Shown: positions 6,062-18,618, counted from the first letter of the stretch. The stretch: 44,742 nucleotides of DNA from Euzebya rosea (GCF_003073135.1 NZ_PGDQ01000027.1:1-44742), one strand, 5' to 3'. The notes: generated by a model from the sequence alone, not told the origin. Program-made: numbers and translations.

Positions 6062-6358
6062 CTAGGCCCGCGGCCCGCCCCAGGGTCTGCGGAACGCTTC
6101 AGCTCGCTCCGCGACAAGGCGCTCAATCACCTCCTGTCGCTGGTGGGCCAGCGCCCCGATGAGGTCCATCAGCGCAGAAACGGATAGGCCGTAGGCAGCG
6201 CCGAGCTGGCGAAGCGCATCCCGGTGACACGTCTCGATACGTGCCGAGATTCGGACCCGCTGGTTGTTGGCGGCCGCTCGCTCAGCCGCGTGTTGGGTAC
6301 GAGGAATCCCCGCCGCCGCTCGTCGCGCGATGACGCTCGCTCGCTTGCGATCGACCAT
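6062..6358 (-). CDS. Small ribbon-helix-helix-like partner of ParA
   Basis: A 98-residue protein starting at ATG 6358, which overlaps the ParA stop (ATGA). An in-frame extension up to 6445 exists but lies wholly within parA, so the coupled ATG is preferred. The centre, VRISARIETCHRDALRQLGA followed by YGLSVSALMDLIGAL, has the strand-helix-helix pattern of MetJ/Arc-type DNA-binding proteins, and the N-terminus is very basic. Small DNA-binding proteins just downstream of a short ParA are the usual centromere-binding and autorepressing partners in type Ib plasmid partition cassettes. Here it probably stabilises the mobile island or its excised form. Role by context; the fold is a visual call. 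Confidence 0.6.
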   Translation of the reverse strand: MVDRKRASVIARRAAAGIPRTQHAAERAAANNQRVRISARIETCHRDALRQLGAAYGLSVSALMDLIGALAHQRQEVIERLVAERAEAFRRPWGGPRA

Positions 6359-7227
6359 CACGGCCTCCTCAGCGTGTCGAGCTCGGCCGCGACCGAGCGG
6401 TAGTGCTCGAGCGCGTCCCGCTGGATCGCGCTGCCCTCCGCCCACGCGAAGACCTCTCGGAGCGGGACCTCAGTGTTCAGCACCGCGACTCCTGAGGAGT
6501 CCAGGGCCTCGCGGTACGCCGTGCGCGCGATAGTTCCCGCCCGGGTCTGAGTGAGAAGCACCGCGAGGGAGACGTCGAGGTCGTGCTCGGTGGCCAGCTC
6601 GACCACCAACTCGCGGGTCGGTGCGACACGGCGCGTGTCCGGGGCTGTTGGTCGACACGGAACCACGATGCAGTCGGCTGCACGGATCGCGGATCGGACG
6701 ACGCGGTGGTCGGCTGCCGCGGGCGGGCAGTCGATGACCACGACGTTCCAGCCCGCCGCCAGCGTCGGCTTCTCGCTGTGCAGCGTGCCTGAGGCTCGGC
6801 CCAAGACCGGCCACGGCAGCGGCGTCCCCGTCTCGGCGCAGTCCGATGCCCACGCGACAGCCGACCCCTGAGGATCGGCGTCGATGACGAGCACGCGCTC
6901 GCCCGCGTCGTGCCATGCCGCCGCCAAGTGCATCGGCGTTGTCGTCTTGCCCGAGCCGCCCTTCAGGTTGACGACCGCCACCACCCAGGCCAACGCACGT
7001 GCAGGCGAGCCAGTAGGCGCATGGCGTGCGTCATGCGCATCTGGCGCAAGAGGCGCCACATGCGCGTCATGCGCTTCTCGCGCGTCTGGCTCCATCCAGG
7101 TCTCCATGAGGGCCGGCGACACGGCCACGGCACCATCACCGGCGGCATGGGCGGCTCGAGCTCGCCGTTCCTCTCGTTCGACGCGGTGGGATGCTGCCAC
7201 TCGCACGTCTTGCGCATGTCGCGCCAC
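6358..7227 (-). CDS. parA: ParA-family partition ATPase
   Basis: A 289-residue deviant-Walker ATPase. The motif KGGSGKTTTPMHLA lies near residues 89-102, DADPQGSAVAWA near 118-129 and VVVIDCPPAA near 160-170, the classic ParA/MinD set with both signature lysines. It would form ATP-dependent dimers on DNA and move or anchor a partition complex. The first 80 residues are an unusual extension rich in Ala, His, Asp and Arg (AREAHDAHVAPLAPDAHDAR). They are encoded by DNA full of GCGCAT/CATGCGC repeats, so the extension may result from a centromere-like array rather than from protein selection. The start is GTG 7227, without a ribosome site. ATG 7107 is an alternative that would still leave the ATPase core intact. 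The gene is divergent from the excisionase. Confidence 0.85.
   Translation of the reverse strand: MARHAQDVRVAASHRVEREERRARAAHAAGDGAVAVSPALMETWMEPDAREAHDAHVAPLAPDAHDARHAPTGSPARALAWVVAVVNLKGGSGKTTTPMHLAAAWHDAGERVLVIDADPQGSAVAWASDCAETGTPLPWPVLGRASGTLHSEKPTLAAGWNVVVIDCPPAAADHRVVRSAIRAADCIVVPCRPTAPDTRRVAPTRELVVELATEHDLDVSLAVLLTQTRAGTIARTAYREALDSSGVAVLNTEVPLREVFAWAEGSAIQRDALEHYRSVAAELDTLRRP
7028..7074. repeat. GCGTCATGCGC repeats within the 5' part of parA
   Basis: The 11-mer GCGTCATGCGC occurs exactly at 7028-7038 and 7064-7074, 36 bases apart. Related GCGCAT and CATGCGC words occur at about 7017-7040, 7059-7075 and 7210-7216. The repeats are partly palindromic and make the repeated AHDAH/DAHDAR residues of ParA. 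The spacing of about three and a half helical turns and the location in a partition gene suggest a parS-like binding array, but this is inference. Confidence 0.35.
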
Positions 7228-7443: not shown

Positions 7444-7715
7444 ACGACATCGACCAAGGGACGGTGCTTGACCGCGAACCGGCCACGCTGCTGGGCGACG
7501 AGCTCCCGCTGACCATCACCGTGGAGGAGGCCAGCGCCCTCCTCGGTATCTCCCTCCGCTCGACCTACCGGGCCGTGAACGCCGGGCACATCCCCTCTAC
7601 CCGGATCGGCCGGCGGTTCCACGTCCTGATCCCGCGGCTCCGCGAGCAGCTGGGCCTGACCGAGCCCGAACTCGTCCATGCACTCACCTGCGTCCGAGAG
7701 AATGCCGCGACGTGA
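7440..7715 (+). CDS. Excisionase-like helix-turn-helix protein
   Basis: A 91-residue protein with a MerR/excisionase-type winged helix: TVEEASALLGISLRSTYRAV, then AGHIPSTRIGRRFHVL from about residue 27 to 70. This HTH_17-type module binds DNA and in integrative elements acts as directionality factor or as a regulator. The start ATG 7440 is preceded by a strong ribosome site (AAAGGGAGGG, about 6 bases upstream), whereas longer in-frame starts upstream have none. Its TGA overlaps the GTG of the integrase (GTGA), the usual xis-int coupling. Confidence 0.8.
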   Translation: MNDIDQGTVLDREPATLLGDELPLTITVEEASALLGISLRSTYRAVNAGHIPSTRIGRRFHVLIPRLREQLGLTEPELVHALTCVRENAAT

Positions 7716-8959
7716 GGGGCACCGTCTTCAAGCGGTGCGGCTCGTGCAACCGCCGCGTCACGCAACGCCTCTGCGAGCACTGCGAGGCCTCCACCGTCTC
7801 ATGGGGCTACCGCCTGAAGGTCGCCAAGAAGCCCGGCGGGACCTGGCAGGAGCAGTGGAAGTTCGGTTTCCCCACCAAGGGCGCCGCCAACGATGCCCTC
7901 GCCAAGCAGCAGGCCGCCATCCGCGAGAACCGGCACGTCGTCCCCTCGACCATGACCGTCGAGGACTACCTCACCACCGTCGGGCTCGAGGCCACCAAGC
8001 CCCCGCGCGTCCGGCCGCAGACCTGGAACGACCGCGCCGCGAAGATCCGACTCCACGTCGCCCCGCACCTCGGCCACCTCCGCCTGCAGGAGCTCACCCC
8101 CGGCGACCTGACCGAGCTCTACAACCACCTCCTGATCGACGGGAACCAGCGCGACGGCGGGGGACTGTCGGTCACGTCGGTCCGCAGCCTGCACCGGATC
8201 CTCCGCAAGGCGTTCAACGACGCGATGCGCTGGGGCCACCTGCCCCACAACCCCACGGCCCTCGCTGACCCACCGCCCGCCGCCAACGAGCGCGCGTCCC
8301 GCCGCCGGTCGATGAAGATCTGGACGCCCGAGCAGCTGGGCACCTTCCTCGCCGCCACCGAAGGTCAGCCCCACCACGTCCTCTGGAGCCTCGCCGCCTT
8401 CACCGGCATGCGCCGCTCCGAGCTGCTCGCCCTCGCGTGGAACGAGGTGCGCCTGGACACCGGCCGCATCCACGTCCGCGCCAGCATGGTCACCGAGCCC
8501 GACGGCACCTACGTTCGCAGCCACGAGCTCAAGAGCGCCACTTCGGCCCGCACGATCGAGCTGGACCCCGACACCGTCCAGCTGCTCGTCCAGCACCGCG
8601 CCGACACCCGACCCCTCCACAACCCGCTGGACCTGGTGTTCCCCGGCACCGCCGGCGACGGCTGGCTCAGCCCGCCCGCGATCAGCATTGCGTTCCGTCG
8701 CGCCGTCCGGTCCGTCGACGTGCCGATCGTGCGGTTTCACGATTTGAGGCACACACACGCGTCGCTGCTCCTGCAATCCCGCGTCAACCCGAAGGTCGTG
8801 AGCGAGCGCCTCGGCCACTCCTCGGTCGCCTTCACGCTCGACACCTACGCCCACGTCCTGCCCGGCATGCAGGCCGACGCGGCGACCCAGCTGCGGGCCC
8901 TCGTCAGGGACGGCAGGACCACCTCGACAGCCACCCCGATGACGGAAAGGAACGCCTGA
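7712..8959 (+). CDS. int: Tyrosine recombinase (integrase) of the tRNA-Gly island
   Basis: A 415-residue site-specific recombinase. The N-terminus has a Cys4 zinc-knuckle (CGSCNRR then CEHCEA, residues 9-28), followed by an arm-binding AP2-like region and a core-binding domain with SVRSLHRILRKAFNDA. The catalytic residues are all present: Arg234 (FTGMRRSELL), His343 and Arg346 (HDLRHTHAS), His369 (RLGHSS) and Tyr379 (TLDTYAHV). The enzyme should be active by sequence. The gene ends about 100 bases from the 3' end of the tRNA-Gly gene, the normal position for integrases that target tRNA 3' halves. The start GTG 7712 overlaps the excisionase stop. Confidence 0.95.
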   Translation: MRGTVFKRCGSCNRRVTQRLCEHCEASTVSWGYRLKVAKKPGGTWQEQWKFGFPTKGAANDALAKQQAAIRENRHVVPSTMTVEDYLTTVGLEATKPPRVRPQTWNDRAAKIRLHVAPHLGHLRLQELTPGDLTELYNHLLIDGNQRDGGGLSVTSVRSLHRILRKAFNDAMRWGHLPHNPTALADPPPAANERASRRRSMKIWTPEQLGTFLAATEGQPHHVLWSLAAFTGMRRSELLALAWNEVRLDTGRIHVRASMVTEPDGTYVRSHELKSATSARTIELDPDTVQLLVQHRADTRPLHNPLDLVFPGTAGDGWLSPPAISIAFRRAVRSVDVPIVRFHDLRHTHASLLLQSRVNPKVVSERLGHSSVAFTLDTYAHVLPGMQADAATQLRALVRDGRTTSTATPMTERNA

Positions 8960-9062: not shown

Positions 9063-9136
9063 TGGAGCGGGTGAGGGGAATCGAACCCCCGTATTCAGCT
9101 TGGGAAGCTGATGTTCTGCCATTGAACTACACCCGC
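9063..9136 (-). tRNA. tRNA-Gly, anticodon CCC
   Basis: On the minus strand the gene begins GCGGGTG at 9136 and closes with CACCCGC at 9073-9067, a perfect 7-bp acceptor stem. It is followed by discriminator T and an encoded CCA. The anticodon arm reads TCAGC-TTCCCAA-GCTGA, giving anticodon CCC. The T-arm GGGGGTTCGATTCCCC is intact. The integrase lies on its 3' side, so this is the likely insertion target of the island, with the tRNA kept functional. Confidence 0.95.
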
Positions 9137-9186: not shown

Positions 9187-9221
9187 TTGCACAGGATTGG
9201 TCTAGCCCACTAGCCTTCTAG
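9187..9221 (+). promoter_or_regulatory. Promoter and CTAG-repeat operator of the GntR operon
   Basis: TTGCAC (9187-9192) and TAGCCT (9211-9216), 18 bases apart, precede the GTG at 9224 by only 7 bases, so the message is probably leaderless. CTAG occurs at 9202, 9210 and 9218, exactly 8 bases apart, across the -10 and up to the start. HutC-type GntR regulators often bind GT-N-TA-N-AC sites, so this is a likely autoregulatory operator. Confidence 0.5.
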
Positions 9222-9223
9222 TC

Positions 9224-10039
9224 GTGACTGACCGCCCGCTCCCGTTCTTCGCCGACTGCGCCATCGACGTCGACGGGCCAGTTCCGATCTACTACCAGCT
9301 GCAGGAGTGGCTGAGCGAACGCATCGCCGACGGCGACCTCGCGCCCGGCAGCCGCCTGCCCTCCGAACGCGACTTCGCCGAGCAGCTCGGGATCAGCCGC
9401 ATGACGGTCCGCCAGGCCGTGGACCGCTTGGTCCGGCAGGGCCGGCTGGAGCGGCGACGCGGGAACGGGACGTTCGTCACCCCGCCGAAGGTCACGGGCA
9501 CCCTCACCGATCTCCGCAGCGCCTCCTCCGAGCTCCGCGCACAGGGACGACACAGCGCCGTCACCGTCCTCGACGTGACCACCGAGAGCCCGCGCACCAG
9601 CATCCGCCGCCGCCTGAACCTCGACCCCGGAGCCGACACCGCGATCCGCCTCCGCCGCCTGCGCAAGGCCGACGGCGTCCCCCTCAGCCTCGAGACCTCC
9701 TGGCTGCCACGCCACCTCACCCAGCCGCTGCTGACCGCCGACCTCGCCACGCGATCCCTCAACGACGTCCTCCAGCAGGACTGCGGTCTGACCCTCGACC
9801 GGGCCACCGAACGCCTGACCGTGATCACCCTCGACGAGTACGAGGCCACCCACCTGCACTCCCAGCCCGGCGACCCCGCCTTCCTGCTGGAGCGCACGAC
9901 AACCGACGACGCCGGTCGCCCGGTGGAGTACGTCAAGAGCGTCCTGCGCGGCGATTTGTTCGCCTTCGAGACCGTCCGCACCGGCGCCGACGTGACCGCC
10001 TCCGCCCTCGCACACCCCACGCCGACCACGAACGGATGA
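9224..10039 (+). CDS. GntR-family (HutC subfamily) transcriptional regulator
   Basis: A 271-residue regulator. Residues 17-85 form the GntR winged helix (PIYYQLQEWLSERIADGDL, then LPSERDFAEQLGISRMTVRQ). Residues 95-260 form a UTRA ligand-binding domain of the chorismate-lyase fold, ending with PVEYVKSVLRGDLFAFE. HutC-type proteins usually sense a small metabolite of the pathway they control and repress their own operon. It leads the operon and its TGA overlaps the ATG of the next gene. The start GTG 9224 has no room for a ribosome site and follows the -10 by 7 bases, consistent with a leaderless start. The ligand is unknown; a nucleoside or sugar phosphate made by the downstream genes is the natural guess. 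Confidence 0.9.
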   Translation: MTDRPLPFFADCAIDVDGPVPIYYQLQEWLSERIADGDLAPGSRLPSERDFAEQLGISRMTVRQAVDRLVRQGRLERRRGNGTFVTPPKVTGTLTDLRSASSELRAQGRHSAVTVLDVTTESPRTSIRRRLNLDPGADTAIRLRRLRKADGVPLSLETSWLPRHLTQPLLTADLATRSLNDVLQQDCGLTLDRATERLTVITLDEYEATHLHSQPGDPAFLLERTTTDDAGRPVEYVKSVLRGDLFAFETVRTGADVTASALAHPTPTTNG

Positions 10040-11088
10040 CCATGCCACCCGCCCCCACCGACCTCGCCGCCATTCCCGGCACCACCGCCGACCGGGCCCT
10101 CGGCGCCCTCTACGGCGTCGCCCTCGGCGACGCGATGGGCATGCCCGGTGAGCTGTGGCCCCGCCGTCGGATCCTCGACCACTTCGGTTGGATCGACCGC
10201 TTCCTCCCCGGCCCCGACGGCCACTTCGTCGTCGACGGCTTCGTCGCCGGGCAGGTCACCGACGACACGCAGCAGACGATGATGCTGGCCGGCGCCATCC
10301 TGGCCGGCGGCGGACGGGCGCGGGGCGAGGTCGTGGCCGAGCACCTCGTCGCCTGGGCCGACCGCGTCGGTGCCACGGGCGGCAACTTCCTCGGCCCGAG
10401 CAGCGAACGGGCCATCGGCCTGCTCCGCTCCGGCGCACCCCTCGAGGAAGCCGGCGTCCGCGGTGACACCAACGGGGCGGCCATGCGCATCGTGCCCGTC
10501 GGCGTGCTCGTGCCCTCCGACGACCTCGACGACCTCGTCGACCAGGTCGTGGAGTGCTGCCGCCCGTCGCACTACACCGACATCGCCATCGGCGGCGCGG
10601 CCATGATCGCCGCCGCCGTCAGCACCGCGATCGACACCGGCTCGGTGCGCGACGCCGTCAGGGCGGCCGACCGGATCCTCGACCGGGCCGCCAACCACGG
10701 CAACCCCGCGCCCGGCGCGTCGCTGCGCCGCCGGCTGTCGATGGCGCTGTCCATCGTCGCCTCGGACTCCGACGACGATGCCGTCCTGCAGGAGCTCTAC
10801 GACGTCATCGGCGCCGGGGTGGCGACGACCGAGGCCGTCCCCACCGCCGTCGCGATCGCGCTGATGGGCGGCGGCGACCCGGTCCGCACCGCCGTCCTGT
10901 GCGCCAACCTCGGCGGGGACACCGACACGATCGGCGCGATGGCGACCGGCATCGCCGGCGCGGCGGGCGGCTTCGACGCCATCCCCGACGAGCTCGTCGC
11001 GACCCTCGAGTCCGCCAACGACCTCTCCCCCCTCCGCGACCTCGCCCTGGGCCTGGCATCGCACCGAACCGCCACCTCGACGTCGTGA
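10036..11088 (+). CDS. ADP-ribosylglycohydrolase-family enzyme
   Basis: A 350-residue member of the ADP-ribosylglycohydrolase (ARH/DraG) family of dinuclear-magnesium glycosidases. Visible motifs are GALYGVALGDAMGMPGE near residue 20, the metal-binding VTDDTQQTMML near 74, NGAAMRIVPVG near 147 and GGDTDTIGAMATGIAGA near 295, all expected for an active enzyme. The start ATG 10036 overlaps the GntR stop (ATGA). Family members remove ADP-ribose from proteins or nucleic acids, but several operonic members sit with sugar or nucleoside uptake genes, where a nucleosidase role is likely. Beside a nucleoside importer and a kinase-like protein, cleavage or processing of an imported ribosyl compound is the best inference. 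The substrate is not readable from sequence. Confidence 0.88.
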   Translation: MTMPPAPTDLAAIPGTTADRALGALYGVALGDAMGMPGELWPRRRILDHFGWIDRFLPGPDGHFVVDGFVAGQVTDDTQQTMMLAGAILAGGGRARGEVVAEHLVAWADRVGATGGNFLGPSSERAIGLLRSGAPLEEAGVRGDTNGAAMRIVPVGVLVPSDDLDDLVDQVVECCRPSHYTDIAIGGAAMIAAAVSTAIDTGSVRDAVRAADRILDRAANHGNPAPGASLRRRLSMALSIVASDSDDDAVLQELYDVIGAGVATTEAVPTAVAIALMGGGDPVRTAVLCANLGGDTDTIGAMATGIAGAAGGFDAIPDELVATLESANDLSPLRDLALGLASHRTATSTS

Positions 11089-11158
11089 CCCGACGGCCCG
11101 TCCACCAACGACGCCATCCCGCGCCACCCGCCATCCCGAGCCGAAAGAAGTCCATGCC

Positions 11159-12322
11159 ATGAACGGCCAGACCACGACCAGCCCGACACGCCCGACCCGC
11201 CTCCACGCTGCCCTGCTGCTCGTCCTCGCCTTGGTGCTGGCCGCCTGCGGCGCCAGCGAGCCCACCGACACGACCGACACCGCCGACGCCCCGGACACGC
11301 CCGACACCGCCGACACGCAGGACACGGCCGACACTCCCGACACGCCCGACACCGATGACCCGCAGGCCACCGCGGACGACGCCGGCGACATCAGCGTCGC
11401 CATCGTGCTGAACGGCGAGCTCGGCGACGAGGCCTTCTTCGACTCCGCCGCCCGCGGTGCCGCGATGGCCGAGGAGGAGCACGGGGTCGAGGTCCGGGTC
11501 ATCGAGGCGGGCCTGGACGCCGCCGGGTGGGAGCCTGCCCTCCGCTCGGCCGTCGCCTCCGGCGACCACGACCTCGTCATCACCGGCACCCAGCCGATGG
11601 CGGAGATCCTCGGCCCCATCGCCGAGGAGTTCCCCGACCAGCAGTTCGTCTTCTACGACGCCGCCCTCGACGCCCCCAACATCCACTCCATCACCTACGC
11701 CCAGCACGAGGGGTCGTTCCTCGCGGGTGCACTCGCGGCCCTCACGACCACGTCGGCCGAGATCGAGGGCACCAACCCCGACGCGACCATCGGGTTCATC
11801 GGCGGCCTCGACCTGCCGGTCATCAACGACTTCCTCAACGGCTTCACCCAGGGCGCCCAGTACGTCGACAGCTCCGTCGAGGTGCTCAGCGCCTACGCCG
11901 GCGACTTCGGTGACCCCGCCCGCGGCCTCGAGCTCGCCTCCACCCAGATCGCCCAGGGCGCCGACGTCATCTACCAGGTGGCCGGCGGCACGGGCGCCGG
12001 CGTCTTCCAGGCCGCCACCGACGCCGGCACCTACGCCATCGGCGTGGACACCAACCAGAACGGCATCGCACCGGGCACGATCCTGTCCTCGATGATGAAG
12101 AACGTCGACGTCTCCCTGGCCGCCGCGATCGGTGACTTCGCCGCCGGGGACCTGGCGTTCGGCACCACCGAGGTCTACGGCCTGGCCAACGGCGGCGTGG
12201 GCCTGGCCACCGACGAGCTCTACGAGGACCACGTCCCCGCCGACATCCGCGAGCGCATCGAGGAGATCACCCAGGAGCTGCTCGCCGGCGAGATCACCGT
12301 CGAGTCGATCCTCGGTCAGTGA
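11159..12322 (+). CDS. BMP-family nucleoside-binding lipoprotein of an ABC importer
   Basis: A 387-residue extracellular substrate-binding lipoprotein. A signal peptide (LHAALLLVLALVLAACG) ends in the lipobox LAAC, so Cys33 would be lipidated. An acidic linker of about 40 residues built of repeated TDT/DTPDTAD units follows, and then a periplasmic-binding fold of the BMP/PnrA type from about residue 78 (ISVAIVLNGELGDEAFFDSA; GFIGGLDLPVINDFLNGF; IYQVAGGTGAGVFQAA). BMP proteins bind purine and pyrimidine nucleosides. The start is ATG 11159 with only a weak GAAAGAAG ribosome site. It is followed directly by the ATPase and two permeases, completing the importer. The long DT-rich spacer is typical of a cell-wall-spanning tether. 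Confidence 0.92.
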   Translation: MNGQTTTSPTRPTRLHAALLLVLALVLAACGASEPTDTTDTADAPDTPDTADTQDTADTPDTPDTDDPQATADDAGDISVAIVLNGELGDEAFFDSAARGAAMAEEEHGVEVRVIEAGLDAAGWEPALRSAVASGDHDLVITGTQPMAEILGPIAEEFPDQQFVFYDAALDAPNIHSITYAQHEGSFLAGALAALTTTSAEIEGTNPDATIGFIGGLDLPVINDFLNGFTQGAQYVDSSVEVLSAYAGDFGDPARGLELASTQIAQGADVIYQVAGGTGAGVFQAATDAGTYAIGVDTNQNGIAPGTILSSMMKNVDVSLAAAIGDFAAGDLAFGTTEVYGLANGGVGLATDELYEDHVPADIRERIEEITQELLAGEITVESILGQ

Positions 12323-13848
12323 CCCCCACGACCGACTCGACCACACCCCCCGCGCTGCAGGTGCGGGGGGTCAGCAAGACCTATCCCGACGGCACCGTCG
12401 CCAACGATCGCGTCGACCTGATCGTCACCGCCGGGCACATCCACGCCGTCATGGGGGAGAACGGCGCAGGCAAGTCGACCCTGATGCGGGTCGTCCACGG
12501 CCTGGAGACCCCCGACGCCGGCGACATGGTCCTGCACGGCCGTCCCTTCACCCCCCGGGACGCCCGCCAGGCCATCGCCGCCGGCGTCGGGATGGTCCAC
12601 CAGCACTTCCGGCTGGTCGACGAGCTGACCGTCGCCGAGAACGTCACCCTCGGCCGCGAACCACGCCGCGGGCCCTTCGTCGACCGTGACGCCGCCCGCC
12701 GACGCGTCGCGACGCTGGCCGTCGACCTGGGCACCGACATCGACCCGGACCGGCCGGTCGGCGAGCTGTCGGTCGGGCAGAAGCAACGCGTGGAGATCCT
12801 CCGCGTGCTCGACCAGGGCGCACGGCTGATCGTCCTCGACGAACCCTCCGCCGTGCTGACCCCACAGGAGGTCGACGGGCTGTTCACCGCGCTGCGCCGC
12901 CTGGCCGACGAGGGCCGCACCGTCGTGTTCATCACCCACAAGCTGCGCGAGGTGCTCGACCACGCCGACGCCGTCACCGTGATGCGCGACGGCCGGACCG
13001 TGGGCTCTCGCGCTGTCGCCGACGTCGACGAGGCCGCCCTCGCCCGGCTGATGGTGGGCCGCGACGTCGTGCTGACCGGCACGCGAACCCCTCACACCCC
13101 GGGGGAGGAGGTGCTGGCGGTGGAGGGGGTCACGGTCCACCACGACGGCCGGACGCTGCTCGACCACGTGACGCTGTCGGTGCACGCCGGCGAGGTCGTC
13201 GGCATCGCCGGCATCGACGGCAACGGCCAGGACGAGCTGGTCGACGTCGTCACCGGTCTCCGCACCCCGACGGCCGGCCGGACCCGCATCGGTGGCATCG
13301 ACCTGCCGAATGACCCTGCTGCCGTGCGGCGCCTCGGCGTCGGCCACATCGCCGCCGACCGCACCGATCGCGGCACCGCCGCGGCCAGCAGCATCGCCGA
13401 CAACCTGGTCGTCAGCCGGCTTGGCGACGTCGCCCGCCACGGGGTCCTCGACCGTCGGGCCGTACGCCAGCACGCCGAGGACGCCATCACCATTCACGAC
13501 ATCCGCGGCGGCACCCCCGACACCCCCGTCGCCAGCCTCTCCGGCGGCAACGCCCAGAAGGTCGTCATCGCCCGCGAGCTGCACGGCGACCCCCGGCTGC
13601 TCGTCGCCGCACAACCGACCCGCGGGGTCGACATCGGCGCCATCGAGCGCATCCACGACGAGCTCCGCCGCCGCCGTGACGACGGCGCGGCCATCCTGCT
13701 GGTCTCCACCGAGCTGTCGGAGCTGCGCAGCCTGGCCGACCGCCTCGTCGTCCTGCAGGGCGGTCGGGTGACCGCCCGCTACGACGACCCCGACACCGTC
13801 GACGACGAAACGCTCGGCCGCGCCATGGCCGGCGAGGTCTCCGCATGA
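12319..13848 (+). CDS. Double-domain ABC ATPase of the nucleoside importer
   Basis: A 509-residue protein with two fused ABC domains. The first has Walker A GENGAGKST (about residues 47-55), signature LSVGQKQRVEIL and Walker B LIVLDEPSAVLT. The second has a degenerate Walker A region (GIAGIDGNGQDEL), signature LSGGNAQKVVIAREL and VAAQPTRGVD in place of a normal Walker B. This asymmetry is normal for the RbsA/NupO-type ATPases of sugar and nucleoside importers, where only one site hydrolyses efficiently. The start GTG 12319 overlaps the lipoprotein stop (GTGA), and the end overlaps the first permease. Confidence 0.95.
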   Translation: MTPTTDSTTPPALQVRGVSKTYPDGTVANDRVDLIVTAGHIHAVMGENGAGKSTLMRVVHGLETPDAGDMVLHGRPFTPRDARQAIAAGVGMVHQHFRLVDELTVAENVTLGREPRRGPFVDRDAARRRVATLAVDLGTDIDPDRPVGELSVGQKQRVEILRVLDQGARLIVLDEPSAVLTPQEVDGLFTALRRLADEGRTVVFITHKLREVLDHADAVTVMRDGRTVGSRAVADVDEAALARLMVGRDVVLTGTRTPHTPGEEVLAVEGVTVHHDGRTLLDHVTLSVHAGEVVGIAGIDGNGQDELVDVVTGLRTPTAGRTRIGGIDLPNDPAAVRRLGVGHIAADRTDRGTAAASSIADNLVVSRLGDVARHGVLDRRAVRQHAEDAITIHDIRGGTPDTPVASLSGGNAQKVVIARELHGDPRLLVAAQPTRGVDIGAIERIHDELRRRRDDGAAILLVSTELSELRSLADRLVVLQGGRVTARYDDPDTVDDETLGRAMAGEVSA

Positions 13849-14897
13849 GCGCCCAGCCGGGTGCGACGGCGCCACCCCGAACCGCCTCGACCGTCGCGGT
13901 CGCCGCCGGTGCGATGGCCCTCGGGGTCGTGCTGATCGTCCTGGTCTCCGACCAGCCCGCCGCCTCGGTCCGCGCCTTCCTCCTGGGCCCCTTCGACGGC
14001 ACCTTCCAGATCGGCACCATGCTGGCGCGAGCGGTCCCCTACACCTTCACCGGCCTCGCCGTGGCCCTCGGGTTCCGCGCGGGGGTGTTCAACATCGGCG
14101 CAGAGGGACAGCTGTACCTGGGCACCCTGGCGGGCACCGCCGTCGCGCTGACCGTGTCGCTGCCCGGTCCCGCGCTGATCGTCGCGGCCCTCCTGGCCGC
14201 CGCGGTGGCCGGCGGCCTGTGGGGCTTCGTCCCCGGGATCCTGCGGGCGCGGTGGGCGACCAACGAGATCGTCACGACGCTGATGCTCAACTTCGTCGCC
14301 GTGCTGCTCGTGTCGTGGGTGGTCAGCGGCCCGCTGCTGGACCCCGGCGGCCTCGGGTTCCCCCAGACGGCGTTCCTGCCCGACAGCGCCCGGCTGCCCC
14401 GGTTCCTCCCGCCGTCAAGCGCCCACCTGGGGCTGGTCATCGGCATCCTCGTGTGCATCGCCGGACACTGGCTGCTGACTCGCACCACCCTCGGCTACGA
14501 CATGCGCATCGCCGGGGACAACCCCGCCTTCCTGCGCTACGGCGGCCGGTCACCGCAGCGGGCCATCACCGCCTCGATGGCGCTCGGTGGTGCCATGGCC
14601 GGCCTCGGCGGCATCGCGGTGGTCATGGGGGAGCAGGGACGACTGATCGACGGGTTCTCCACCGGCTACGGGTTCGTGGGGATCCTGATCGCGTTGCTGG
14701 CCGGCAACCGGCCGCTGGTCATCCCGATCGCCGCGCTGTTCTACGCCTACCTGACGTCGGGAGCAGCGGTCATGGAGACCGTCACCGACGTGCCGCGCGA
14801 GGTCGTCACCATCGTGCAGGGCACGCTGTTCCTGTTCGTCACCGTCACCGTCCTGGCCCGCACACGGACCCGCCCGGCCCGGGAGGTGGAGGGGTGA
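13845..14897 (+). CDS. ABC permease 1 of the nucleoside importer
   Basis: A 350-residue integral membrane protein of the BPD_transp_2 family with about ten hydrophobic segments. The family motif GVFNIGAEGQLYLG (about residues 80-93) and RWATNEIVTTLMLNFVAV (about 138-155) are the coupling and pore signatures of BMP-linked permeases. It starts at ATG 13845, inside the end of the ATPase gene, and overlaps permease 2 by a GTGA. It pairs with permease 2 as a heterodimer. Confidence 0.93.
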   Translation: MSAQPGATAPPRTASTVAVAAGAMALGVVLIVLVSDQPAASVRAFLLGPFDGTFQIGTMLARAVPYTFTGLAVALGFRAGVFNIGAEGQLYLGTLAGTAVALTVSLPGPALIVAALLAAAVAGGLWGFVPGILRARWATNEIVTTLMLNFVAVLLVSWVVSGPLLDPGGLGFPQTAFLPDSARLPRFLPPSSAHLGLVIGILVCIAGHWLLTRTTLGYDMRIAGDNPAFLRYGGRSPQRAITASMALGGAMAGLGGIAVVMGEQGRLIDGFSTGYGFVGILIALLAGNRPLVIPIAALFYAYLTSGAAVMETVTDVPREVVTIVQGTLFLFVTVTVLARTRTRPAREVEG

Positions 14898-15838
14898 GCG
14901 TGCTCGACCTCGTCCTCGACGCCGGGTTCGCCTTCGCCGTCCTCCGGGCCGCCTCGCCGATCCTGCTGGCCGCGATGGGTGGGGTCCTCACCGAACGCGC
15001 CGGCGTCCCCAACATCGGGGTGGAGGGGATGATGCTGACGGGCGCGTTCGTCGCCGTCGTCACGACGCTGGCGACCGGCAGCCCGTGGGTCGGCCTCGGC
15101 GCCGCCGTCCTGGCCGCCGCGGTCGCCGGTGCGCTGCTGGCCTGGGTGGCCGTCGACCTGCACGCCGACATCATCGTCGCCGGCTTCGCGATCAACACCC
15201 TCGTCGGCGGCAGCACCCTGTTCGCGATGAGCGAGCTGTACGGGACCCGCGGCTCGATCGTCGACTCGTCCCTCGTGACGTTGCCCCGCATCGACCTGCC
15301 CATCGTCGCATCGGTCCCGGTCCTGGGCGAGGCGGTGTCGGGCCACAACGTCCTCGTGTACGTCGGCTGGCTGTCGGTCCTCGCCGTCGCCGTGGTGCTG
15401 CGGCGTACCCGCACCGGGGTGCACCTGCGTGCCGTCGGGGCGTCACCGGAGACCGCGGCCGCCGTCGGGATCGACACCCGCCGGGTCCAGTACGGCACCC
15501 TCGTCGTCGCCGGGGCCCTCGCCGGGCTGGGCGGCGCCAACCTGTCCATCGGCTACCTCAGCTCGTTCACCCGCGACATGACCGCCGGGCGAGGGTTCAT
15601 CGCGCTGGCTGCCGTCCTGTTCGCCGGCGCCCGCCCCGGCCTGACCGTCGTCGCGACGCTCGTGTTCGGCATCGCCGACGCCCTCGGCAACGTCCTGCAG
15701 CGCACCGACGTCCCGTCACAGGCCCTGTTGATGCTGCCGTACCTTGCGACGTTCCTCGCCATCACCGTGCACAGCATCCGCACCAGCCGGCGGCAGGGCA
15801 GCCCGGCCCCGACGACGACCCCGGAGGCAACCTCGTGA
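14894..15838 (+). CDS. ABC permease 2 of the nucleoside importer
   Basis: A 314-residue membrane protein of the same BPD_transp_2 family, with GGVLTERAGVPNIGVEGMML near residues 28-47 and eight or more hydrophobic segments. The start GTG 14894 overlaps the stop of permease 1; longer in-frame extensions upstream run inside permease 1 and are not real. Its own stop overlaps the GTG of the CblS-like gene, so the kinase-like protein is translationally tied to the transporter. Confidence 0.93.
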   Translation: MSVLDLVLDAGFAFAVLRAASPILLAAMGGVLTERAGVPNIGVEGMMLTGAFVAVVTTLATGSPWVGLGAAVLAAAVAGALLAWVAVDLHADIIVAGFAINTLVGGSTLFAMSELYGTRGSIVDSSLVTLPRIDLPIVASVPVLGEAVSGHNVLVYVGWLSVLAVAVVLRRTRTGVHLRAVGASPETAAAVGIDTRRVQYGTLVVAGALAGLGGANLSIGYLSSFTRDMTAGRGFIALAAVLFAGARPGLTVVATLVFGIADALGNVLQRTDVPSQALLMLPYLATFLAITVHSIRTSRRQGSPAPTTTPEATS

Positions 15839-16614
15839 GCGTCCTGACCGACCGGCTGTCCGCCGCCACCCCGTGGGCACCGATCCGCCATCGCGACCTG
15901 CTGTACCTGCGGACCGACGGGACCGAGGTCCTGGTCATCGCCTGCGACTCCGACGGGGGCATCGGCCCCAAGCCCCACGACGTCGTCCCCATCGGCGGCT
16001 ACTCGCTGGGTCGGACGGCTGCCCGGGTCCCGCTGCTCGAGCTGCTGGCCGCGGGCGCGGTCCCGGTCGCGGTCAGCGACACGCTGGCGGTGGAGATGGA
16101 CCCGACCGGGCGCGACATCATCGCTGGCGTCGTGGACGAGATCGCCATGGTCGGGCTCGGGCCGGACGCGCTGACGGGCAGCACCGAGGACAACGTGCCG
16201 ACTGTCGCAACCGGCGTCGGCGTCACCGTCATCGGCCGGGCGTCGCTGGACATGCTGCGGGTCGGCACCAGCCGGCCGGGCGACCGGCTGGCCCTGGTCG
16301 GGCGTCCCAAGTCCGCACCGGCCCACCGCTTCGACCACACCGACGCCGAGATCCTGCACCCCGGGGTCGTCCGTGACGTGCTGGTCGTGCCCGGCGTCGT
16401 CGAGGCGCTGCCGATCGGCTCGCGTGGCCCCCGGGCCGAGGCCGACGACCTGGCCGCCGGTGTCGACGCCACCTGTCGGATCCCCGAGTGGCCCGTGCCC
16501 CCGCAGGACTCCGGCGGCCCGTCCACCGCGATGATCCTCACCCACCGCACCGACATCGAGGCGATCCGGGCGGCAACCGACCGGCCGGTCTGGCCTCTCG
16601 GCGCGCTCACCTGA
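15835..16614 (+). CDS. PurM-fold (AIR synthase-related) protein, alpha-ribazole kinase CblS-like
   Basis: A 259-residue single-domain protein resembling the N-terminal half of the PurM/ThiL/SelD/HypE superfamily. Diagnostic stretches are CDSDGGIGPKPHDVV (about residues 39-53), TARVPLLELLAAGAVPVAVS (62-81), LAVEMDPTGRDIIAGVVDEI (84-103) and LTGSTEDNVPT (111-121). From memory these match the family of CblS, which phosphorylates alpha-ribazole so that 5,6-dimethylbenzimidazole can be salvaged into cobamides. The Asp/Glu/Asn residues that bind Mg-ATP in PurM-like kinases are present. The start GTG 15835 overlaps the permease stop. If correct, the upstream BMP importer would carry alpha-ribazole, in place of the CblT transporter of Firmicutes. 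The family call is moderately sure; the substrate is inference. Confidence 0.65.
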   Translation: MSVLTDRLSAATPWAPIRHRDLLYLRTDGTEVLVIACDSDGGIGPKPHDVVPIGGYSLGRTAARVPLLELLAAGAVPVAVSDTLAVEMDPTGRDIIAGVVDEIAMVGLGPDALTGSTEDNVPTVATGVGVTVIGRASLDMLRVGTSRPGDRLALVGRPKSAPAHRFDHTDAEILHPGVVRDVLVVPGVVEALPIGSRGPRAEADDLAAGVDATCRIPEWPVPPQDSGGPSTAMILTHRTDIEAIRAATDRPVWPLGALT

Positions 16615-16722: not shown

Positions 16723-18618
16723 GTGGCAGTCACCCGCAGGCAGTTCCTCTCCCTTGTCGCGAGCGTGGCCGCAGCCACCGGCCTGCCCCGGGAGGTGGTC
16801 GCCGCCGAGCTGCTGCAGGCCGATGGCGAGGCCGCGGTCGCCGCGGCCCGTCTGACGACGCTGGCGCGCACCCTCCGGCAGGGCACCCCCAACGACCTGG
16901 GCTACGCACCGGTCGCCCTCGGCGACGGCGAACCCCACCTCGTCCGTGACGAGCTGGCCACCCCCCGGGCCGACCGCGACCAGCGACGACGCAGCCTGCT
17001 CTGCTTCGTGCACCTCACCGACCAGCACATCATCGACGTGCAGTCACCCGCCCGGGTGGAGTTCACCGACCGGTTCGTCAACACCGCCTGCCCACCGCCG
17101 TTCGAGTCCGCCCACCGCCCCCAGGAGGCCGCATCGGCACGGATCGCCGATGCCATGATCCGACGGGTCCGCGAGATGGCCAGCTCACCCGTCACCGGCG
17201 CGCCGATCGCCGCCGCGGTCTGCACCGGCGACAACATCGACAACCAGCAGGCCAACGAGGCCGATGTCTTCCTGGCCGTCATGGACGGCGGCACGGTCAC
17301 GCCCAACTCCGGTGACCCCGCTGTCTACGAGGGCGTCCAGGCCAGCGGTGACCTGCAGTACTGGCATCCCGACCCCGCCATCCAGGACCGCTACAAGACC
17401 ACCTACGGCTTTCCCGACGCCCCCGGCTTCCTGACCGACGCCCTGGCCAGCTTCACCGCCCCCGGCATCGGCCTGCCCTGGTACTCCGCCTACGGCAACC
17501 ACGACGGACTGCTGCAGGGCAACGCCCCGACCAACCCGGTCCTGGAGGGCATCGCCACCGGACCGGCCAAGGTGATGAGTCCCGGTCCGTTCAACCCGTG
17601 CCTGCTGGGCGACGGCGAGGTGCCCATCGCACCCGTCGGTGCACCGGTCGCGGCGGTCACCGCCGATCCCGAGCGGCGGATCATCGACCGGGCCGAGTAC
17701 GCCCGCAAGCACCTCGAGTCACCGGGCCTGCCGGCGGGCCACGGGTTCACCCGGGCCAACGTCGACAACGGCATCGTGTACTACGCCGCCGACGTCGGGC
17801 CGCTGCGGTTCATCGTCCTCGACACCGTCAACCCCGGCGGGTTCGCCGAGGGGTCCGTCGGCGACGTGCAGCTGGCCTGGCTGGACGCCGAGCTGCAGGC
17901 CTGCGACGACGCCCAGCGGCTGGCCGTCGTGTTCAGCCACCACGGGCTGCGGTCGTTGACCAACCCGATCGTCACGCCGGATCCGGCCGACCCCCAGGGT
18001 GGTGACCTTCCGCGCCACCTCGCCGACGACGTCGAGGCGGTCTGCACCGCCCATCCGAGCCTGATCCTGTGGGTGAACGGCCACACCCACTCCAACACCG
18101 TCGGGTTCCGGGGCGAGGGGAGCGGCGCGTTCTGGGACGTCGGCACGGCCGCCCACATCGACTGGCCGGCGCAGGCCCGCGTGATCGAGGTCGTCGACAA
18201 CGCCGACGGAACCCTGTCGATCTTCACCACGATGATCGACCACGACGACAGCGACCCGACGGTGGTCCTGGCCCGCGAGCTGATGGGCAACGACCCGCAG
18301 GGTGGTTTCGCGGGGACCGGGCCGGGTGAGTTCAACGACCGCAACAACGAGCTGCTGATCGCCAACCCGTTCAGCGCGACCGGTCCGGCCCCGACGCCCG
18401 GGCCGACCCCCACGACCACCCCGACGCCCACGCCGACCCCCACGAGCCAGACCGGGACGGGCGGCTCGACGACCGGCAGCAGCGGTGGCTCGACGGGCGG
18501 ATCGACCGGTCAGCGGCTGCCCGCGACCGGGCCCACCTCACCCAACCTCACCATCGGCGGTGCTCTGCTGCTCGCTGGCGCGGCAGGCCTGCGGGTGGTG
18601 CGCCAACCCCGACGCTGA
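16723..18618 (+). CDS. Tat-exported, LPXTG-anchored metallophosphoesterase
   Basis: A 631-residue calcineurin-like phosphoesterase. The N-terminus TRRQFLSLVASVAAATGLP is a twin-arginine signal. Metal-binding motifs follow in order: VHLTDQHIID near residue 96, GDNIDNQQ near 169, YGNHDG near 258, VVFSHHGL near 404 and VNGHTHSN near 450. This set and the length fit the PPA1498-type family (TIGR03767, from memory). After the catalytic domain come a Pro/Thr/Gly/Ser-rich linker (about 548-596), the sortase motif LPATG at residues 599-603, a hydrophobic segment and a final RQPRR. The enzyme should therefore be exported folded with its metals and covalently attached to the cell wall. GTG 16723 is the start that exposes the Tat signal. 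The substrate is unknown. Confidence 0.9.
   Translation: MAVTRRQFLSLVASVAAATGLPREVVAAELLQADGEAAVAAARLTTLARTLRQGTPNDLGYAPVALGDGEPHLVRDELATPRADRDQRRRSLLCFVHLTDQHIIDVQSPARVEFTDRFVNTACPPPFESAHRPQEAASARIADAMIRRVREMASSPVTGAPIAAAVCTGDNIDNQQANEADVFLAVMDGGTVTPNSGDPAVYEGVQASGDLQYWHPDPAIQDRYKTTYGFPDAPGFLTDALASFTAPGIGLPWYSAYGNHDGLLQGNAPTNPVLEGIATGPAKVMSPGPFNPCLLGDGEVPIAPVGAPVAAVTADPERRIIDRAEYARKHLESPGLPAGHGFTRANVDNGIVYYAADVGPLRFIVLDTVNPGGFAEGSVGDVQLAWLDAELQACDDAQRLAVVFSHHGLRSLTNPIVTPDPADPQGGDLPRHLADDVEAVCTAHPSLILWVNGHTHSNTVGFRGEGSGAFWDVGTAAHIDWPAQARVIEVVDNADGTLSIFTTMIDHDDSDPTVVLARELMGNDPQGGFAGTGPGEFNDRNNELLIANPFSATGPAPTPGPTPTTTPTPTPTPTSQTGTGGSTTGSSGGSTGGSTGQRLPATGPTSPNLTIGGALLLAGAAGLRVVRQPRR

Follow-up and report, generated by a model that had tools for sequence, protein, structure and literature searches.

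A candidate operon for riboside import, phosphorylation and cleavage in Euzebya rosea, combining a CblS-family kinase with a YegU-type glycohydrolase

Introduction

Which compound is handled by an operon that joins a nucleoside-type importer to a PurM-fold protein and a glycohydrolase? The question is raised by seven genes of Euzebya rosea at positions 9224–16614 of a 44,742-nucleotide stretch of DNA (GCF_003073135.1, NZ_PGDQ01000027.1:1-44742; hereafter the window). They encode a GntR-type regulator, an enzyme of the ADP-ribosylglycohydrolase (ARH) family, a BMP-type ABC importer and a PurM-fold protein. In an initial annotation, the genes were proposed to take up and salvage alpha-ribazole, a cobamide precursor and an alpha-N-riboside. 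Here we propose that they may form a regulated system for the import, phosphorylation and cleavage of ribosides, with alpha-linked ribosides, and alpha-ribazole above all, as the likeliest substrates; we give this reading roughly even chances of being correct. The protein families, folds, gene partnership and genome context on which it builds were read from sequence.

The operon and its CblS-family kinase

All seven genes lie on the + strand and five of their six junctions are 4-base overlaps; the sixth, between the genes of the glycohydrolase and the BMP lipoprotein, is a 70-base gap. Gene positions and Pfam matches bear out the operon as first described, with mostly 4-base overlaps, a regulator, a glycohydrolase, a complete BMP importer and a PurM-fold protein. 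The importer comprises a binding lipoprotein, an ATPase and two permeases, and solved relatives of the lipoprotein include Lbp and TmpC. Since the identical seven genes in the same order are found in an Acidimicrobiaceae metagenome-assembled genome (MAG; locus L013), the arrangement is not a chance array.

The PurM-fold protein had been likened to CblS, and profile searches confirmed the likeness: a profile built from 37 cob-linked CblS proteins gave 209 bits, compared with 25 bits for the generic Pfam model AIRS and 17 bits for the sole NCBIfam match. Using tblastn, we reached Listeria and Lactiplantibacillus proteins immediately adjoining cobU-cobS-cobC or cblT-cobS, a gene neighbourhood that is the context of the known alpha-ribazole kinase. 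Over about 195 residues, the window kinase shares 35% identity with the Listeria protein (beside cobU-cobS-cobC) and 42% with an L. plantarum homologue (beside cobS). We take the Listeria protein to be CblS because it is encoded directly upstream of cobU-cobS-cobC, and by reference to the 2010 study of CblS and CblT. The predicted model of the window kinase (predicted local distance difference test, pLDDT, 90.6) resembles selenophosphate synthetase (SelD), HypE, PurM and ThiL along almost the whole chain; superposition with SelD 3u0o yields a Z score of 21.4 and a root-mean-square deviation of 3.2 over 233 aligned residues, as expected of a PurM/ThiL-type fold. None of cobU, cobS and cblT is present within the window operon. 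Judged by profile and fold, the product of 15835–16614 is a member of the CblS (alpha-ribazole kinase) family, and we propose alpha-ribazole as a compound that it phosphorylates.

CblS and the glycohydrolase across genomes

Three relatives, used as queries against species genomes, returned 18 loci, many of them from Bacillota; we read the gene neighbourhoods of these and of about 98 Bacillota CblS loci. Because a phylum sample of 396 Actinomycetota genomes contained only three CblS genomes at strong E-values, all of them already known, further statistics were drawn from Bacillota. In several Bacillota matches (G555, G478, G524, G558, G664, G799, G733 and G687), the CblS reading contains an in-frame stop, perhaps because the match starts upstream of the start codon, or through decay or recoding.

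The initial annotation gave the glycohydrolase no place in the pathway; it emerges here as a recurrent partner of CblS. An ARH gene is present at 18 non-redundant CblS loci, the window's included, in Bacillota, Actinomycetota, Neomarinimicrobiota and an unplaced lineage, together with three kinds of transporter. Bacillota and Micromonospora show the order GntR-CblT-CblS-EcfAA-EcfT-ARH and Arthrobacter the order BMP ABC-GntR-CblS-ARH. At L026 and L027, GntR-CblS-ARH precedes a TonB receptor that matches the B12 receptor best and, at a greater distance, a BtuF-like protein; a Neomarinimicrobiota MAG carries CblS-ARH with the start of a similar TonB receptor. The L026 and L027 receptors hint at the uptake of corrinoids or corrinoid fragments.

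The partnership is confined to one part of the family. All 18 ARH-linked CblS proteins group in one clade of 25 members (support 100/97), from which cob-linked CblS is absent. None of the 18 loci holds cobS, cobU or cobC, and several encode a homologue of CblT, which is known as a component of alpha-ribazole transport. Conversely, cobS or cobU is found at 37 other CblS loci, and ARH at none of those.

Two loci of the partnership carry neighbours of another kind. At L077, a ribokinase, a BMP importer and two RihA-type nucleoside hydrolases precede the kinase and ARH. The Bacillota locus L086 (5953–16588) reads GntR-ARH-PfkB-BMP ABC-CblS, followed by ribose-1,5-bisphosphate isomerase-like and PsuG-like proteins; its genome has a second CblS in an ARH operon of the energy-coupling factor type (L071). 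By gene content, both surroundings are settings of nucleoside degradation, in keeping with a catabolic system for ribosides. The two hydrolases at L077 also raise the question of whether the system simply imports common beta-nucleosides for a CblS-like kinase that has been respecialised for uridine, adenosine, pseudouridine or the like. BMP importers usually carry purine or pyrimidine nucleosides, and a nucleoside hydrolase also adjoins the kinase at L012. We nevertheless consider this quite improbable: the kinase stays within the CblS family, other versions have a CblT homologue, and the ARH enzymes that have been studied act on alpha-linked ribose. Moreover, the host has a PsuG-PfkB pair on another contig (C9), which indicates that pseudouridine is routed separately and led us to reject pseudouridine kinase as the main role.

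Cobamide genes of the hosts

If alpha-ribazole were imported and phosphorylated solely to supply CobS, with the glycohydrolase as an accessory that discards wrong alpha-ribosides, the hosts should be able to use the product. Of the genomes with ARH-linked CblS, 5 of 17 encode CobS, compared with 78 of 81 among the other CblS genomes (Fisher 3e-9, a p-value that overstates independence, given that the genomes are relatives of one another and several of them incomplete). The ARH-linked genomes without CobS include those of isolates, for instance Bacillus litorisediminis and Arthrobacter sp. Soil762. The ARH-bearing CblS clade thus appears to reside mostly in genomes unable to assemble cobamides.

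The window host itself has the background that the initial annotation pointed to. CobS is present (genome G000, contig C3, 9.7e-48), CobT was not found and no BluB scored above the cut-off in this genome, although CobT is present in 19 of 20 same-class relatives with full CobS. The L013 genome likewise has CobS without CobT, and its cobU-cobS genes adjoin a BtuFCD-like set. In these two hosts, the kinase product could feed cobamide assembly via CobS. As a separate observation, the window genome encodes CobS back to back with a second, divergent CobS-like protein (L169:15011-16539).

These host genes, together with the one-contig genome G094, which has CblS and CobS and lacks CobT and a linked glycohydrolase, are evidence for dedicated salvage. 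We still regard it as unlikely. Besides the scarcity of CobS and the missing cob genes at ARH-linked loci, no cobalamin riboswitch was detected at the gathering threshold in the window or at the ARH-linked loci L015, L016, L018, L019 and L023. Of the salvage role first put forward, the kinase family and the host context are supported, but dedicated salvage as the general role is not; the catabolic neighbours at L077 and L086 also speak against it.

The glycohydrolase and its kinship to YegU

The window ARH scores 208 bits with PF03747 (cut-off 26.2) and is 46% identical to E. coli YegU across 326 amino acids with one gap; both proteins contain the motif GDAMGMPxELWPRxRxxxHFGWIDRFLPGP. In the predicted model (pLDDT 91.7), the top fold match is MJ1187, followed by ARH3 and DraG; the matches also include a structure of mutant human ARH3 with alpha-NAD+. 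The metal-site residues T75, D76, D77, D295, D297 and T298 are invariant among the CblS-linked copies. The branching order within the YegU-type group, CblS-linked copies included, is poorly resolved in the ARH tree. ARH1 and ARH3 cleave ribosyl bonds in the alpha but not in the beta configuration; among these is the N-glycosidic bond of alpha-NAD+, whereas beta-NAD+ is not hydrolysed (PMC9738213).

The family and fold are shared with DraG and ARH3, and the enzyme could accordingly be imagined to strip ADP-ribose from protein and so regulate the transporter or the kinase. Its scores are far under the family cut-offs, at 77 bits against 337 for DraG and 41 against 490 for Tri1, and on this ground DraG-like activity was rejected. 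The nearest relatives are YegU proteins of metabolic operons, and no ADP-ribosyltransferase gene was seen in the operon, which makes such a role highly improbable.

E. coli YegU is encoded in yegTUV, whose other products are a nucleoside-type transporter and a PfkB kinase, and the gene of the GntR regulator YegW lies next to them. In Pantoea, Plesiomonas and Lactiplantibacillus, relatives lie beside a PfkB kinase and a permease for nucleosides or cytosine, and one in Enterococcus directly follows a phosphotransferase system (PTS) transporter, a type that phosphorylates on import. As a phosphorylating activity is found beside the YegU-type ARH in nearly every neighbourhood examined, its substrate is suggested to be a phosphorylated riboside or glycoside. 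YegV and the PfkB kinase of L086 share weak, general PfkB kinship. Across the YegU-type loci L168 (1822–5782) and L173–L177, transporters vary between nucleoside permease, cytosine permease and PTS, with a PfkB kinase or the PTS as the phosphorylating partner. YegU-type systems look like a modular set that is broader than the CblS version.

Regulator, feature coordinates and surroundings

The window regulator is 27% identical to E. coli YegW (GgaR). Upstream of it, the palindrome TGGTCTAGCCCA differs from TGGTCTAGACCA by one mismatch and is the sole one-mismatch site in the window. At L013 the corresponding sequence is GGTCTAGACC, located at −31; at L021 it is a perfect ATATGTCTAGACATAT, located at −56. 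The GntR regulator would keep the operon repressed via the palindrome near 9198 until substrate is present. All features are listed in Table 1.

Table 1. Coordinates of the operon genes and the candidate operator in the window
Feature	Position	Strand	Basis or remark
Operator-like palindrome TGGTCTAGCCCA, GntR/HutC type	9198–9209	+	14 bases 5' of regulator start codon
GntR/UTRA (HutC-type) transcriptional regulator	9224–10039	+	Pfam UTRA 5e-35, GntR 1e-20
YegU-type ADP-ribosylglycohydrolase-family enzyme, proposed phospho-(alpha-)riboside hydrolase	10036–11088	+	Pfam ADP_ribosyl_GH (PF03747) 3e-61
BMP-family substrate-binding lipoprotein, lipobox LAAC	11159–12322	+	Pfam Bmp 2e-58
Double-domain ABC transporter ATPase	12319–13848	+	Pfam ABC_tran 2e-45, two stretches
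ABC permease 1	13845–14897	+	Pfam BPD_transp_2 4e-40
ABC permease 2	14894–15838	+	Pfam BPD_transp_2 7e-38
CblS-family PurM-fold kinase, proposed alpha-riboside (alpha-ribazole-type) 5'-kinase	15835–16614	+	Pfam AIRS 2e-5

Just 5' of the operon lies a tRNA gene (9066–9136, −), and beyond it a tyrosine recombinase gene (7712–8959, +) and a gene for a ParA-family ATPase (6358–7227, −). These genes probably mark one end of an integrative element that entered at the tRNA gene, with the operon on the tRNA's other side. On the same strand as the operon and 108 bases 3' of it, 16723–18618 encodes a secreted TIGR03767-family metallophosphoesterase with a C-terminal LPATG-like anchor. We excluded this gene from the operon because it is absent beside the relatives examined.

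Discussion

From this context we infer the substrate, the order of the steps, the regulation and every activity of the system. In the reading that we favour, the BMP importer would take up a nucleoside-like riboside, the CblS-family kinase would phosphorylate its 5'-hydroxyl, and the YegU-type glycohydrolase would cleave the glycosidic bond of the phosphorylated riboside to yield ribose 5-phosphate and the free base. In the window host, part of the kinase product might instead pass to CobS, finishing cobamides. The kinase family and the occurrence of a CblT homologue in other versions point to alpha-ribazole or a relative with an alpha-ribosyl bond, the kind of bond that ARH enzymes cleave, as the likeliest substrate.

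Several points weigh against this scheme. We know of no activity for any member of the ARH-linked CblS clade, nor for YegU. The clade members L007, L022, L025 and L028 have no ARH beside the kinase, and at L012 and L116 the contigs end. In several linked ARHs, Ser takes the place of the catalytic Glu of ARH3, which motif alignment puts at E39 in the window enzyme. Many of the genomes are incomplete MAGs, so that the absence of CobS is uncertain genome by genome. YegU relatives with PfkB kinases need not act on the substrate of the CblS version, and E. coli YegW has been reported to respond to ADP-glucose (PMC10819704).

A wider hypothesis, which we put forward tentatively and with some doubt, is that the CblS-clade kinase and the YegU-type ARH form a multi-phylum catabolic route, served by interchangeable transporters, in which alpha-ribosides such as alpha-ribazole are split into ribose 5-phosphate and base, and that E. 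coli yegTUV is its PfkB version. The system bears on two questions: what becomes of alpha-ribazole in the environment, and what yegTUV does. The presence of alpha-ribazole in marine microbial exometabolomes and in marine dissolved organic matter has been reported on the basis of molecular formula, and its addition affects communities (PMC9296465). No route for its breakdown turned up in the literature searched; searches pairing alpha-ribazole with ADP-ribosylglycohydrolase gave no relevant paper, and a broader operon search, judged by title and abstract, gave nothing in point. The function of yegTUV is stated to be unknown (PMC10819704), and a literature search for yegU returned only the GgaR paper and a genome announcement. 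CblS serves as a marker in genome-based predictions (PMC6461909). If the hypothesis is true, a CblS gene alone would not signify cobamide salvage and an entire clade of CblS would serve catabolism or two purposes, with consequences for such predictions, and the orphan yegTUV would gain a concrete biochemical hypothesis.

Comparing the operon with known systems reveals partial likeness to each. The CblS/CblT salvage of alpha-ribazole in Listeria innocua, reportedly described by Gray and Escalante-Semerena in 2010 (cited in PMC6461909), shares the CblS-family kinase, the uptake of a nucleoside-like compound and a host with CobS and without CobT. However, the window has a BMP ABC importer in place of CblT, an additional GntR regulator and YegU-type glycohydrolase, no cobU, cobS or cobC, and a kinase from a separate clade.

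The overall composition resembles that of E. coli yegTUVW, as both combine a GntR/UTRA regulator, a YegU-type glycohydrolase, a nucleoside-type transporter and one kinase. Whereas YegV is a PfkB kinase, the window kinase is a PurM-fold CblS protein (L086 has a PfkB kinase beside ARH), and in the window a BMP ABC importer takes the place of the nucleoside-proton symporter. In gene content, the operon looks like a CblS-kinase variant of yegTUVW. The PsuK/PsuG pathway for pseudouridine would share the proposed logic of phosphorylating the riboside first and cleaving the product afterwards, but its enzymes are unrelated and the host encodes PsuG and a PfkB kinase elsewhere. Finally, nucleoside ABC importers of the PnrA/BMP type have the same lipoprotein, double ATPase and two permeases, and differ in their operon partners.

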